NCBI RefSeq assembly: GCF_002950575.1
Contig: NZ_CP026923.1
Location: 310,001-374,000 of the forward strand
DNA from: Pontimonas salivibrio
GTDB lineage: Bacteria > Actinomycetota > Actinomycetes > Actinomycetales > Microbacteriaceae
Direction: 5' to 3'
Length of the DNA stretch: 64,000 nt
Each line of letters starts with the position of its first letter. Within the stretch, counting starts at the first letter, position 1. Shown here piece by piece: positions 32,112 through 36,804 of the stretch. The notes below the pieces were generated by a model that was given only the letters and a program-made list of their open reading frames with translations, was not told the origin of the DNA and ran no database searches. Both the position numbers and the translations under genes were made by a program.

Positions 32112-33326
32112 GTGGAAAAGATCAAAGTTGATGGCGTTGTTGTCGAATTAGACGGCGATGAAATGACGCGAATTATTTGGCAGTTCATTAAAGATCGCCT
32201 CATCCACCCCTACTTGGATGTGACCCTCGAGTACTACGACCTGGGTATGGAAAACCGCGACAAAACAGACGACCAGGTCACCGTTGATTCCGCCCACGCA
32301 ATCATCAAGCACGGTGTGGGGGTGAAATGCGCGACGATCACTCCGGACGAAGCCCGCGTGGAAGAATTCGGGTTGAAAAAAATGTGGCGAAGCCCGAACG
32401 GAACCATCCGAAACATCATCGGTGGGGTAATTTTCCGTGAGCCCATCATCATTTCCAACATCCCCCGACTGGTCCCCGGCTGGAACAAACCCATCATTGT
32501 GGGGCGCCACGCCTTTGGTGACCAGTACCGTGCGACAGATTTCCTCTTCGATGGCCCTGGAACGCTGAGCATTAGCTTTCAGCCACAAGACGGTTCAGAG
32601 GCACAAAGCTTTGAAGTGTTCCAAGCCCCCGGTGCCGGGGTCGCCATGGCGATGTACAACCTGGATGAGTCGATTCGCGACTTTGCCCGGGCATCCATGA
32701 ATTACGGACTCTCCCGCGGCTACCCGGTCTATCTCTCCACCAAGAACACCATTTTGAAAGCCTATGACGGTCGATTCAAAGACCTCTTCCAAGAAATCTT
32801 TGACGCTGAATTTGCGGAGAAATTTGCCGAAGCGGGCATCACCTACGAACACCGACTGATCGACGACATGGTGGCGAGTGCCATGAAGTGGGAGGGCGGT
32901 TATGTCTGGGCGACAAAGAACTACGACGGCGACGTTCAATCAGACACCGTCGCCCAAGGCTTTGGCTCGCTGGGTCTCATGACTAGTGTGTTGACCTCGC
33001 CCGACGGCAAGATTGTGGAAGCGGAAGCTGCTCACGGCACGGTGACTCGTCACTACCGGGAACACCAAAAAGGTAACCCGACGTCTACCAACCCGATTGC
33101 GTCCATCTTTGCCTGGACGCGGGGTCTGGCCCACCGCGGAAAACTGGATGACAACCAGGCACTCATTGACTTTGCCGACACTCTCGAGCAGGTCGTCATC
33201 GAGACCGTCGAGGCGGGCGTGATGACGAAGGATTTGGCGCTGCTCGTGGGTCCGGACCAGAAGTGGTTAACCACCGAAGGTTTCCTCGAAGCTCTGGATG
33301 AGAACCTGCAGGCCAAGCTCGCCTGA
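32112..33326 (+). CDS. icd: NADP-dependent isocitrate dehydrogenase (type II, dimeric)
   Basis: Oxidative decarboxylation of isocitrate in the TCA cycle. The GTG start gives [23 protein letters not shown], the eukaryote-like type II IDH N-terminus. Substrate and metal motifs include [22 protein letters not shown] and [20 protein letters not shown] is the NADP site. The length is 404 aa. It is divergent from the GNAT gene. Confidence 0.96.
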
Positions 33327-33353
33327 GGCCGTTACTGGCACGCACGCCAGCTT

Positions 33354-33382
33354 GCACATTAATACCCCCTGGGGTATATACT
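33354..33382 (+). promoter_or_regulatory. Promoter with CsoR-type operator (operator 33362-33377)
   Basis: The operator ATACCCC-CT-GGGGTAT has perfect 7-bp arms and the G/C-tract palindrome used by CsoR/RcnR-family repressors (copper- or persulfide-responsive). It lies between a -35-like TTGCAC near 33354 and a -10-like TATACT (33377-33382), so binding would block the promoter of the small Cys-rich gene at 33425. The regulator gene is not in the window. Confidence 0.75.
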
Positions 33383-33424
33383 GAGGGCAGACGTTTACTG
33401 ACCTGAGTAAAAAGGAGAAAACCC

Positions 33425-33541
33425 ATGTGCAGTCCCGTGCGTTGTAACCGCTGCAGCAAAGTCACTTGGAGTGGATGTGGCGAGCACATCGAAGAAGCGC
33501 TCGCACCGTTCTCTCACGACGAGCTCTGCACCTGCGGCTAA
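33425..33541 (+). CDS. Tiny Cys-rich protein, 38 aa
   Basis: ATG at 33425, preceded by a strong AAAGGAG ribosome binding site 8 bp upstream. The 38-residue product has six Cys: CNRC at 7-10, CGEH at 18-21, and CTC at 35-37 near the C-terminus, plus Cys2. The arrangement suggests a small metal (Zn or Cu) site. Similar tiny proteins of the pattern C-x4-C-x2-C-x7-C-x2-H occur in many actinobacteria without known function. The upstream CsoR-like operator suggests induction by copper or reactive sulfur. It lies downstream of icd and upstream of a hypothetical gene. Confidence 0.8.
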   Translation: MCSPVRCNRCSKVTWSGCGEHIEEALAPFSHDELCTCG

Positions 33542-33575
33542 TCTCCCCGGCTGATACCGAGGCTGACCAGCGTTG

Positions 33576-33956
33576 GTGATTACCGCGCCCGCCGAGGATC
33601 AGAAGCCCCCACGGGGTGCCACGTCACCCTCGAGTACGGACCAGGCCACAGCGGTCGACCTCGATCTGATGCTGGACCAGGTGCTCGCTTCCCTGGAACA
33701 CGTAGCTGCTGAGGATTCCTTGTGCACCCTTACAGGGGAGCGTGTTCAGGCCGCGAAATATTTCGAAGGCCAGGTTGTTGCCCTGAAAGAACTCCGGCGG
33801 ATTCGCCGCACTAGCCTTTCGCCAGAGGCCGACAATCAGGCGCGGCTCGCCCTGATTGAGCAGTGGTCGAAGCGGCTGCGCTCTCATGAGCGCTCCGATC
33901 TGAAATGGCAGTCCTACCTCAGTGGTGGGCGTGACGCATTGACTGCAGTGTCCTAG
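33576..33956 (+). CDS. Hypothetical protein
   Basis: Not recognised. The ~126-aa product has a disordered N-terminus (Pro/Ser/Thr) and a predicted helical body with LMLDQVLASLEHVAAEDSL and FEGQVVALKELRRIRR. It is soluble, with no signal peptide. The start is uncertain (GTG 33576 or TTG 33573). It follows the Cys-rich gene by 34 bp on the same strand and could share its promoter. The stop overlaps the convergent RnfD-FNR gene by 4 bp. Confidence 0.55.
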   Translation: MITAPAEDQKPPRGATSPSSTDQATAVDLDLMLDQVLASLEHVAAEDSLCTLTGERVQAAKYFEGQVVALKELRRIRRTSLSPEADNQARLALIEQWSKRLRSHERSDLKWQSYLSGGRDALTAVS

Positions 33957-35428
33957 TACCCGATGAAGCGATCCGTCTGAACTCGCTTCACACCGGCGGC
34001 CTCGAGGTTCTTTCTCGCCTTGGCCACAAACTCCGGTGATCCGGAAACCCCCGCCCAACTGATGTCATCCACGGAATCGGGCAAGGCTGTGGAGATCTGG
34101 TCCACACTTCCCACCATCACTCGTCTGATTCCGCGGACATGAGACAACTCGGGATAGATTTCTTCCTCATCGGCTGAGACCACCACAATCAAGGTGCCCT
34201 CAACACCCAATTCTCGATCTCGGGCGTTAAACAGCTGTGCAGAAAACGGAGTGATCCCCACACCCCGGGCGACCATCACGAAGTGGCCCACAATCGCATG
34301 CGGCGGTAAGAAATCACCCCCCACCTGACTGACTCTGGCCTTCGTGCCCGGTGTTGCCTTCGCCAAGGCACGCTTCCACGAACTGCCCGGGTCACTGTGG
34401 CGGGTAGTGATGGCGAAAGTCCACTGATCAGACTCCGAGGGTGGGGCCAACCGTGACACGCTCATCACTCGCCTAGAACCCCTCGAATCGACGCGTTGGT
34501 GTGGCAACTGAAGCTCAACCCATTGGCCTGGCTCGATCCGCAGAGGATGATCACTAATAAACCGGTATTCGCGCACCGTGTCGTTGATGTCCATCACCTG
34601 CTGGAGGGTGACCGCTGTGGAGCGCCTCACCGCCCGAAGGGCGGTGAGACCCCACGCCACTGCATTGCCCAGAAGGAGTGCCAGCTCAGGCGATGAGCTG
34701 AGTGTGGTGAAGCCAAGAGGAAGGCTGAATGGAAGTGCGGCGGGAAGGGCGATTGTGGCTGCCACCAGAAACTGGTCAAAGCGCCTGGTCGCTTGGGTCA
34801 GTGGTTCACTGACCATGAAAAAGCCCAAGAACAACAACGGGTAGCTGGTGACCACCAACCACAGGGTGTCACCCAGTGGTTCCCCGGAGACCAGAAGCCT
34901 GGCCGTCAGCAGAGCGAGGGAGAGTGCGAGAAACCACCCCACGGCGAAGAAATGACCTGAGCGAAAGGCGACCAAGGCGCCACCGGCAATGATCAGTGGG
35001 GTGAGCCACGGTGTGGCGACCCACCAAAAGCCGACGGTGAGGCCAAAGACTGACGCAAAGAACACGCCCGTTGCGGCGGGGTTAAACAGATGGCGTCCAC
35101 CAGGGGCGATTAACCATTTTGAGGCCCCCGCAATTGCCCCCGCAGCGCTCACCCCGATGAGGTCTCGTGGCTCCAGTGTGGGCGGCACAATCAACGCAAT
35201 CAACACTCCAGTGATGACGCTCGATTCGACGTGTAGTGGAGCACCCCGCCACAGGGCACCCAACACACTGGTCAACAGCGTTGCGGCAATCCCGAGACCG
35301 GCCGTCACCAGAATCCCAATTGGACTAAAGCCCACCAGACCCAGCGCGGAGAGTCCCGCAGCGGCCAGCACGATCATTGTCAACACCGAACTGATCAGCC
35401 GGTACATCCCAGGCCACGTCACCGTCAT
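33953..35428 (-). CDS. RnfD/NqrB-like membrane domain fused to ferredoxin-NADP reductase domain
   Basis: Predicted electron-transfer protein of 491 aa moving electrons from cytoplasmic NAD(P)H through the membrane. Residues 1 to ~275 are a polytopic RnfD/NqrB-like domain with the hallmark GGRHLFNPAATGVFFA and PLLFLGFFMVSEPLT. Residues ~290-491 are an FNR-type reductase with the FAD-binding RRVMSVSRL and the nucleotide-binding VARGVGITPFSAQL. The start at 35428 overlaps the apbE stop (ATGA). apbE and an FMN-binding lipoprotein precede it in the same operon, so the outward acceptor is probably the flavinylated lipoprotein. Confidence 0.85.
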   Translation of the reverse strand: MTVTWPGMYRLISSVLTMIVLAAAGLSALGLVGFSPIGILVTAGLGIAATLLTSVLGALWRGAPLHVESSVITGVLIALIVPPTLEPRDLIGVSAAGAIAGASKWLIAPGGRHLFNPAATGVFFASVFGLTVGFWWVATPWLTPLIIAGGALVAFRSGHFFAVGWFLALSLALLTARLLVSGEPLGDTLWLVVTSYPLLFLGFFMVSEPLTQATRRFDQFLVAATIALPAALPFSLPLGFTTLSSSPELALLLGNAVAWGLTALRAVRRSTAVTLQQVMDINDTVREYRFISDHPLRIEPGQWVELQLPHQRVDSRGSRRVMSVSRLAPPSESDQWTFAITTRHSDPGSSWKRALAKATPGTKARVSQVGGDFLPPHAIVGHFVMVARGVGITPFSAQLFNARDRELGVEGTLIVVVSADEEEIYPELSHVRGIRRVMVGSVDQISTALPDSVDDISWAGVSGSPEFVAKARKNLEAAGVKRVQTDRFIGY

Positions 35429-36285
35429 GGGTACACCTCTCCGGGAAAATCTGTTGAGTGAGTCAACACCCCGTGGCCATCGATGATGGCCCACTGGAAA
35501 GAAAAATACTCCTCCAGCACCTCAGGTTTCACCACAAACAATGCTGTGGCTAAACCGTCTGCCACCGCACACTCTGCGGCCACCACCCAACTGGCTCGAA
35601 TTGTCGACGTGGGAAGACCCGTGAGGGCGTCCAAAATGTGGTGGACCCCTGGTGCCCAACTGCGCCGATTGGGCGAGGAAGAAGCCAGCGATTGTCCGCT
35701 CAGTTCAACGACCCCCACCACACGTTCTGGGTTACCGGGGTGTTCCATCCCCACACGCTCCGGCGCGGAAGTATGTGCCCGAATATCGCCGCTGGCATCC
35801 ACAACGACATCCTCGATTCCCGCTTCGCGCACAATCCGAAACACTTCGTCGACGAGGTATCCCTTTCCCGCTGCACCAATATCAATGGACACCGGACGGG
35901 GTGCGAGGAGGGTGTTGCCCTCCAGGCTCAACACATCAGAAAACCGGGGAATCGATGGGGGCCTACCCGCCGCGGGTTCGAGTCGATACTGGGCGTCATA
36001 GCCCCAATGTTCCAGAGCGTTACCCACCACAGGGCTTAGTGCCCCGCCCGTTGCCGTGTACAACGATTCGTAGAGGGAAAACAGGTCGACAATGTCCGGA
36101 GGAAACAGGTATTCACCGGCCTCGGATGACACCTGTGCCACCAGAGAGTCGCCACGAAAACGCGAGTAGGTCCGATCAAACTCGTCGATTCGAGTGCTGA
36201 TTGCCTGCCTAAGGGTCTCGGGAAGTGTGACTGAGGTGTCGATCACCCAGGGGACGCCAATGGCGTCAAAGCGCCACGTGGTCAC
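35425..36285 (-). CDS. apbE: FAD:protein FMN transferase
   Basis: ApbE-family enzyme that attaches FMN to a Thr/Ser of extracytoplasmic redox proteins. Motifs: FRGDSLVAQ, ALSPVVGNAL, the core SIDIGAAGKGYLVDEV, VVVDASGDI and HHILDALTGLPTS (metal-binding region). The length is 286 aa, slightly short, and no signal peptide is obvious, so it may act on the cytoplasmic side. The likely target is the FMN-binding lipoprotein whose gene ends 3 bp upstream. Confidence 0.92.
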   Translation of the reverse strand: MTTWRFDAIGVPWVIDTSVTLPETLRQAISTRIDEFDRTYSRFRGDSLVAQVSSEAGEYLFPPDIVDLFSLYESLYTATGGALSPVVGNALEHWGYDAQYRLEPAAGRPPSIPRFSDVLSLEGNTLLAPRPVSIDIGAAGKGYLVDEVFRIVREAGIEDVVVDASGDIRAHTSAPERVGMEHPGNPERVVGVVELSGQSLASSSPNRRSWAPGVHHILDALTGLPTSTIRASWVVAAECAVADGLATALFVVKPEVLEEYFSFQWAIIDGHGVLTHSTDFPGEVYP

Positions 36286-36288
36286 CCG

Positions 36289-36804
36289 CTAGCTCGCTTT
36301 GGCGTCCTGGCGGATTCTTTCCAAAGCGTCCGAAAAACCACCGCCGGTGAGTGACGAACCTGCCACACGGGACACGTCGGCGTCATCGAGGGACTTACCG
36401 ACCACCTCTTCGCCGATGCCTCCGGCAAACATCGCCTGGTAGCGATCGGTGGTGGAATTTGTCGGCTGAGGGGTGACCTCGACAGCACTGATCACCCCAT
36501 CGGTCAGGGTCACGCTCACCACAACCGTTTCTGGTCCGTTGGGTGACTGGTATTCACCCGTCGCCTCAAAGGAACCATCAACATACGCTCCGGCCATCAT
36601 GTCGCTGTTGGCTTCGGCGCCATCCATCGAAGTCTCATCCGAAGAGATGTCTTGTGTCGCCTCCTCGGTCTCTGATGACTCAGCTGGCGCCGTGTCGTCC
36701 ACGTCGGTTGGGGTGGAATCCACCATGGCAGCCGATTGGCACCCGGCGAGGGCGACCAGTGAACTAAGCGACACCGTCATTTTCATGGGAAGAGAAACCC
36801 GCAT
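36289..36804 (-). CDS. FMN-binding domain lipoprotein
   Basis: Lipoprotein of 171 aa; the signal peptide ends in LVALAGC (lipobox Cys near residue 22). An Asp/Glu/Thr-rich spacer follows to about residue 75, then an FMN_bind domain (DGSFEATGEYQSPNGPETVVVSVTLTDG, ISAVEV). The flavinylation motif appears as DVSRVAGSSLTGGGF, with the Thr of SSLT the expected FMN-linked residue. It is the first gene of the three-gene electron-transfer operon. It probably receives electrons from the RnfD-FNR protein on the outer face of the membrane. Confidence 0.88.
   Translation of the reverse strand: MRVSLPMKMTVSLSSLVALAGCQSAAMVDSTPTDVDDTAPAESSETEEATQDISSDETSMDGAEANSDMMAGAYVDGSFEATGEYQSPNGPETVVVSVTLTDGVISAVEVTPQPTNSTTDRYQAMFAGGIGEEVVGKSLDDADVSRVAGSSLTGGGFSDALERIRQDAKAS

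Follow-up and report, generated by a model that had tools for sequence, protein, structure and literature searches.

The window, a 64,000-nucleotide stretch spanning C1:310001-374000 of the Pontimonas salivibrio genome, contains a 38-codon ORF encoding a six-cysteine microprotein, preceded by a promoter region that adjoins an isocitrate dehydrogenase-like gene (icd, 32112-33326). The promoter reads TTGCAC-N-ATACCCCCTGGGGTAT-ATACT and is followed by AAGGAG and then by the ORF (Table 1). ATACCCCCTGGGGTAT is a perfect 7-2-7 inverted repeat positioned between the -35 and -10 elements, and it matches the consensus ATACCn6GGTAT bound by ScCsoR (SCO0620) of Streptomyces coelicolor, a repressor released by polysulfide (PMC7533328). 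In the promoters of relatives (loci L033 and L034), the operator likewise lies inside the spacer, in the arrangement TTGACA-N18-CATACT. The first-pass annotation had proposed such an operator for a gene encoding a tiny protein with CxxC, CxxH and CxC motifs. Its coordinates and inverted repeat proved right, the repeat is commoner in the genome than chance would have it, and all three motifs are read in the ORF at 33425-33541, at residues 7-10, 18-21 and 35-37, respectively; the six cysteines are C2, C7, C10, C18, C35 and C37.

Table 1. Features of the microprotein locus (window numbering) and genes at exact operator sites in the genome (genome numbering)
Feature	Position	Strand	Basis or context
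-35 element TTGCAC	33352..33357	+	sequence; promoters of relatives
CstR-type operator ATACCCCCTGGGGTAT, ATACCCC-CT-GGGGTAT (TACCC-N4-GGGTA)	33362..33377	.	sequence, conservation, spacing, ScCsoR consensus
Alternative -10 element TATATA	33375..33380	+	spacer of 17 to TTGCAC
-10 element TATACT	33377..33382	+	spacer of 19 to TTGCAC
Ribosome-binding site AAGGAG	33412..33417	+	sequence
38-aa six-cysteine microprotein MCSPVRCNRCSKVTWSGCGEHIEEALAPFSHDELCTCG	33425..33541	+	ATG at 33425; homologues; AlphaFold2 mean pLDDT 87
127-aa partner protein, listed with a TTG start	33573..33956	+	predicted helical; invariant motifs
Thioredoxin, PF00085	site 67274		ATACC-N6-GGTAT upstream
katG / glycine-transporter-type membrane gene, PF03458	site C1:243657-243672 (L009/L184)		between both genes
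DUF4395 membrane protein, PF14340	site C1:262666-262681, operator ATACCAGGGGGGGTAT		upstream
Microprotein	site 343362		ATACC-N6-GGTAT upstream
YgaP-like transmembrane protein, PF11127	site 504396		ATACC-N6-GGTAT upstream
Rhodanese lipoprotein, PF00581	site 740847		ATACC-N6-GGTAT upstream
CoA-disulfide-reductase-type/rhodanese fusion and CsoR-family gene; PF07992, PF02852, PF00581, PF02583	site 1373265		
SLAC1/TDT-type exporter, PF03595	site 1697773		ATACC-N6-GGTAT upstream

The operator is overrepresented in this 1.76-Mb single-contig genome. Exact matches to ATACC-N6-GGTAT occur at 8 sites, as opposed to 1.0 expected from the composition of the window (Poisson p = 1e-5), and the pattern TACCCC-N2-GGGGTA occurs exactly at 6 sites against 0.18 expected on the same basis (p = 4e-8). 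One of these six (C1:225437) is intragenic and has no exact ATACC-N6-GGTAT match. When up to one mismatch was allowed, 35 operator sites were found genome-wide, compared with 13 for the reversed control pattern. Judging by the annotation of the adjoining genes, at least seven of the eight exact sites fit a persulfide/thiol regulon, the YgaP-like and DUF4395 membrane proteins being included by association. A DUF4395-like protein also adjoins the microprotein at another locus (L111), which suggests that DUF4395 takes part in the persulfide response. The remaining exact operator lies between the catalase-peroxidase gene katG and a glycine-transporter-type membrane gene and may control either side.

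The genome encodes a single CsoR-family protein (PF02583 at 2.1e-24), the presence of a CsoR/RcnR-family regulator being what the first-pass annotation had made its operator depend on. Copper-sensing CsoR proteins hold the metal in a Cys-His-Cys site, of which the histidine is the second ligand. In the protein encoded here, two cysteines are 29 residues apart, and the position of the copper-ligand histidine, four residues before the second cysteine, is occupied by alanine. The spacing of the cysteines is the same as that of Cys37 and Cys66 of ScCsoR, both of which are needed for release by polysulfide (PMC7533328). The gene, at C1:1371184-1371546, is overlapped by the 3' end of the CoADR-rhodanese gene (L002:7544-9262), with which it shares the operator at C1:1373265. 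By sequence and gene context, the regulator is of the CstR (sulfane-sulfur) type rather than of the copper CsoR type.

Control by this operator is conserved among relatives. ATACC-N6-GGTAT with at most one mismatch was found within 130 bp upstream of 67 of 146 homologues, as opposed to 57 of 3,000 random windows of the same loci (1.9%), and control palindromes gave 0-1. Among the 122 GTDB gene copies listed, 51 have a proximal operator and 26 have one at another position up to 4 kb away; a further 22 lack the site but have a sulfur gene in the same range, counting homologues of CstR, CoADR, rhodanese, thioredoxin, TauE, SQR or SLAC1. Together, an operator at either distance or such a sulfur gene marks 97 of these 122 loci (51+26+22, minus 2 with a distant operator alone); neither an operator nor a sulfur gene lies within 4 kb of 23 copies. 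Many copies stand at the ends of operons, behind CoADR-rhodanese. CstR-type genes are present at 53 of 150 microprotein loci, where the chance estimate is well under 1% for one to two such genes per genome. Every one of the 50 CsoR-family proteins beside the microprotein in other genomes that could be typed, that is, with both cysteines within the match, lacks the histidine and has A (22), G (22), S (5) or N (1) instead.

The microprotein ORF is a real gene. Its alignment comprises 115 homologues, and closely related pairs differ at 1760, 1329 and 2874 sites in codon positions 1, 2 and 3, respectively, so that the third position prevails. Of 297 genomes examined in the order, 154 contain the microprotein, and a profile search found it in 36 of 297 genomes sampled across the phylum. 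Copies are also carried by actinobacterial plasmids, many of them without a listed gene in a gene table that is itself incomplete. A scan of GTDB with a degenerate DNA pattern fixing C7, C10, K12, T14, W15, G17, C18, G19 and H21 returned at least 119 loci; among the matches listed, 117 belong to Actinomycetota, 1 to Chloroflexota and 1 to an Acidobacteriota bin.

Members follow the pattern C-x4-C-x2-C-x-K-x-T-W-x-G-C-G-x-H...C-x-[C/GH], of which the window member is a short form. The family core consists of C2, C7, C10, K12, T14, W15, G17, C18, G19, H21, V29 and C35, although only C35, V29 and later positions count as independent, since the search pattern dictated C7 to H21 and a filter selected for C2. 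Rare changes within the core are seen among BLAST-derived members (W15Y in L046 and T14G in L050). Position 37 is cysteine in 63% of the family, and in 36% C35-x-G-H38 or a near variant is found instead, an exchange that, like C35, was not imposed by the search pattern. Exchanges of cysteine and histidine are typical of structural metal sites, and this one suggests that the peptide binds metal. A C-terminal tail of the GFFxRLFGR type, attached by a variable linker, is present in 61 of 119 members among the matches listed and absent from the window member. Written as G-[FLW]-[FL]-x-[RK]-[LIM]-[FL]-G-R (L065, L070, L073, L083, L116 and about 55 others), the tail resembles a docking or membrane motif. 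At four loci of one genus (L037, L042, L054 and L057), the microprotein occurs as a second copy, of the MCSPIACSDCGKTTWTGCGLH type, which has no operator and follows a small TM2-like membrane protein.

AlphaFold2 modelled the microprotein as a beta hairpin and a short helix (pLDDT 87). Set against zinc-ribbon and treble-clef proteins, which carry two ligand pairs on knuckles of a known zinc fold, the microprotein has CxxC and CxC/CxGH pairs along with the modelled hairpin and short helix. Foldseek returned no significant match in the PDB (best E, 4.5), sequence searches of Pfam, NCBIfam and the PDB gave no significant match, and none of the Pfam/NCBIfam models fits any of the 115 members. The sole Pfam/NCBIfam hit of the microprotein at E <= 1 was the NCBIfam model TIGR04129 (CxxH/CxxC protein), whose members are likewise very small and carry CxxH and CxxC motifs. 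With E = 0.53 and a score of 10.5 bits, where the cutoff is 35, the microprotein is not a member. The motif strings of the peptide were absent from the papers searched, a weak absence because the search covered open PMC text alone.

Between the microprotein ORF and the ORF of the 127-aa partner there are 31 bp, not the 34 bp given in the first-pass annotation, and the interval has no terminator. The partner belongs to a small, unannotated family with the invariant motifs SLC, A-x-K-Y-x-E-G and W-x2-Y-L-x-G-G-x-D-A. It was found in 3 of 149 genomes of the order, each time directly behind the microprotein gene. When the loci from the pattern scan are added to this search, the partner is present in six genomes (the window, L059/L219, L063, L092, L095 and L218) in the same arrangement, the adjacency in L063, L095, L059 and L218 being taken from tblastn offsets and coordinates. 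The partner family was thus seen solely beside the microprotein, all five homologous loci lying directly downstream of its gene. AlphaFold2 predicts four helices (pLDDT 77 from 4 sequences); Pfam gave no match, and Foldseek found nothing significant in the PDB (best E, 1.9). Co-expression of the two genes, as had been suggested for the hypothetical gene that follows, is well supported by the short gap, the lack of a terminator and the kept adjacency, and the partner is probably on the same transcript.

The product could be a metallothionein for copper or other soft metals under a copper-sensing CsoR-family repressor, like mycobacterial MymT under RicR. Six cysteines in 38 residues and a Cys/His ligand swap that points to metal binding would suit such a protein, and MymT, a copper-binding metallothionein, belongs to the RicR regulon (PMC4801387). 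The two systems are alike in placing a tiny cysteine-rich protein under a CsoR-family repressor. However, RicR is a copper sensor with a copper regulon, whereas the regulator and regulon found here are of the sulfur type, no sequence match to MymT was found, and no metallothionein family of Pfam/NCBIfam matched the microprotein (E <= 1) or any of the 115 members. The sole regulator lacks the histidine, and the CopZ/CopA-like HMA proteins (C1:187051-187478, the locus at 187 kb) have no exact or one-mismatch ATACC-N6-GGTAT site nearby. The spacing of the operator also differs from that of csoR sites: TACCC-N5-GGGTA was found near 8 of 8 copper-type csoR genes, but upstream of the microprotein the N4 spacing occurs 68 times and N5 once, and N5 sites are absent from the genome of the window. 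Among sampled genomes without CstR, the sole CsoR-family member has a copper-CsoR-like score and carries the histidine in 8 of 8. No operator precedes the microprotein gene in any of 13 CstR-less genomes (those with a His-bearing or unclassified strong-scoring CsoR alone, or with none), compared with 17 of 27 with a CstR candidate, the latter being the best matches to the window peptide (Fisher p = 1e-4, with a lower effective number because of relatedness, four of the 13 peptides being near-identical). We therefore rejected the copper reading, now unlikely, on regulator type, regulon, N4 versus N5 spacing and the CstR-less genomes. The first-pass annotation had left Cu(I) and persulfides open as signals for CsoR-family control of a small cysteine protein. 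The control stands, and the choice of signal now falls strongly on persulfide or sulfane sulfur, which is favored over copper by the missing histidine, the N4 spacing, the sites at sulfur/thiol genes and the lack of any near CopZ/CopA.

Two further explanations concern what the ORF does. It may encode a zinc-ribbon-like adaptor under CstR that does not itself carry sulfur but binds another protein, such as the 127-aa partner, thioredoxin or a rhodanese, and regulates it. The small predicted hairpin and helix, a ligand swap typical of structural metal sites, the dedicated downstream partner in six genomes and the docking- or membrane-motif-like tail, conserved as G-F-F-x-R-L-F-G-R in about half of the family, are in keeping with an adaptor. 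Yet the conservation of C2 and C18, due in part to how the set was built, exceeds what a four-ligand site needs, the tail is missing from many members, that of the window among them, and most have no partner; we regard such a function as possible, though doubtful. Alternatively, the ORF might encode a leader peptide rich in cysteine through which cysteine shortage attenuates the gene downstream, as in mycobacteria, where short cysteine-rich regulatory ORFs exist (PMC9094748). Those ORFs share with the microprotein gene its shortness, its cysteine content and the ease with which ORF callers overlook it, but they are attenuators, whereas this family is conserved as a protein. Residues K12, T14, W15, G17, G19, H21 and V29 and the C-terminal tail are conserved phylum-wide, the downstream genes vary, many copies end operons behind CoADR-rhodanese, and the microprotein gene has its own ribosome-binding site. 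The leader-peptide explanation is highly improbable and was rejected on the conserved non-cysteine residues, the third-position bias of the changes and the operon-end copies.

Like the spacer length and the CstR-less genomes, the distribution of regulators across the order speaks for sulfur rather than copper. At least two CsoR-family genes were found in 99 of 154 genomes with the microprotein and in 28 of 143 without it, and the counts for at least two genes or one divergent gene were 136 of 154 and 40 of 143, respectively; this proxy for CstR was chosen post hoc, and the rows of the co-occurrence tests share ancestry. The microprotein gene persists in at least 13 genomes that have neither a CstR-type regulator nor the operator. 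Thus, its role extends beyond CstR-induced conditions and is not tied to persulfide induction. The copies in CstR-less genomes (L198-L208) have other promoters, several of which share TAGGATCG or TAGAATCG just upstream, perhaps as -10 elements.

Computation thus shows a conserved operator, a regulon, the type of its regulator and the co-occurrence of regulator and microprotein. It appears very likely that a CstR-type repressor controls the microprotein gene. We infer from the precedents of ScCsoR and CstR that the inducer is persulfide or polysulfide (PMC7533328, PMC10318464). Without the inducer, the genome's one CsoR-family protein would sit on ATACCCCCTGGGGTAT between the -35 and -10 elements and block RNA polymerase. 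Modification of its cysteines by persulfide or polysulfide would cause the repressor to leave the DNA, and the microprotein and the 127-aa partner would then be made together with thioredoxin, rhodaneses, the CoA-disulfide reductase-rhodanese, the SLAC1-type exporter and small membrane proteins.

For the peptide itself, we infer metal binding and a biochemical role in sulfur handling. The microprotein would fold around a metal, probably zinc, with C7, C10, C35 and C37/H38 as the favored ligands, and the conserved thiols C2 and C18, the latter in a GCGxH loop, could accept or pass on sulfane sulfur. Instead, a sulfurtransferase or reductase might use it as a small adaptor. Our main reading has the microprotein as a member of the CstR regulon and as a metal-folded protein that either accepts and passes on sulfane sulfur or serves as an adaptor, with a probability of roughly 0.65. 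Of its two preferred forms, a metal-structured small thiol protein accepting or relaying sulfane sulfur is a tentative choice, held at less than even odds, and an adaptor of the rhodanese/thioredoxin system is a lesser possibility. The earlier suggestion of a miniature metal- or sulfur-handling protein remains plausible. More speculatively, and with considerable doubt, the family may form a new class of zinc-structured, single-domain sulfane-sulfur carriers of 38 to 60 residues that serve the persulfide response of actinobacteria exclusively. Sulfur would move from rhodanese to the GCGxH thiol and on to thioredoxin or the 127-aa partner, and about half of the members would dock through their C-terminal tail.

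The operator, the regulator and the regulon are of a known kind. CstR of Staphylococcus aureus is a CsoR-family persulfide sensor without the copper histidine, and we know of no such microprotein in its regulon. The sensor type and the repressed sulfur genes are as in the present genome, although S. aureus belongs to the phylum Bacillota; its targets, as listed in PMC10318464, are rhodaneses, CoA-disulfide reductase-type enzymes and sulfite/sulfide genes. The ScCsoR circuit has the same operator, a regulator with two cysteines 29 residues apart, and both a rhodanese and a sulfite transporter among its targets, but it comprises four genes with a persulfide dioxygenase, and no microprotein was reported there (PMC7533328). 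In the same class, 9 sampled genomes from a sister genus with large genomes yielded no member of the microprotein family.

As far as searched, the microprotein and partner families are undescribed in family libraries and open papers. A widespread family, present in about half of the sampled genomes of the order, is thus missing from the family databases searched and often omitted from gene tables. The link between this family and the persulfide response can now be tested directly, and the difference between N4 and N5 spacers offers a simple means of distinguishing operators for sulfur sensing from those for copper sensing in genomes of actinobacteria. Should the peptide carry sulfane sulfur, it would rank with the smallest proteins for which such a role is known.

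Next to the partner gene, on the negative strand (33953-36804), we noted by eye a 513-aa membrane protein whose C-terminal part is ferredoxin/flavin reductase-like, together with an ApbE-like flavin transferase-like protein and an FMN-binding-type lipoprotein. These genes possibly form a flavin-based electron-transfer cluster.
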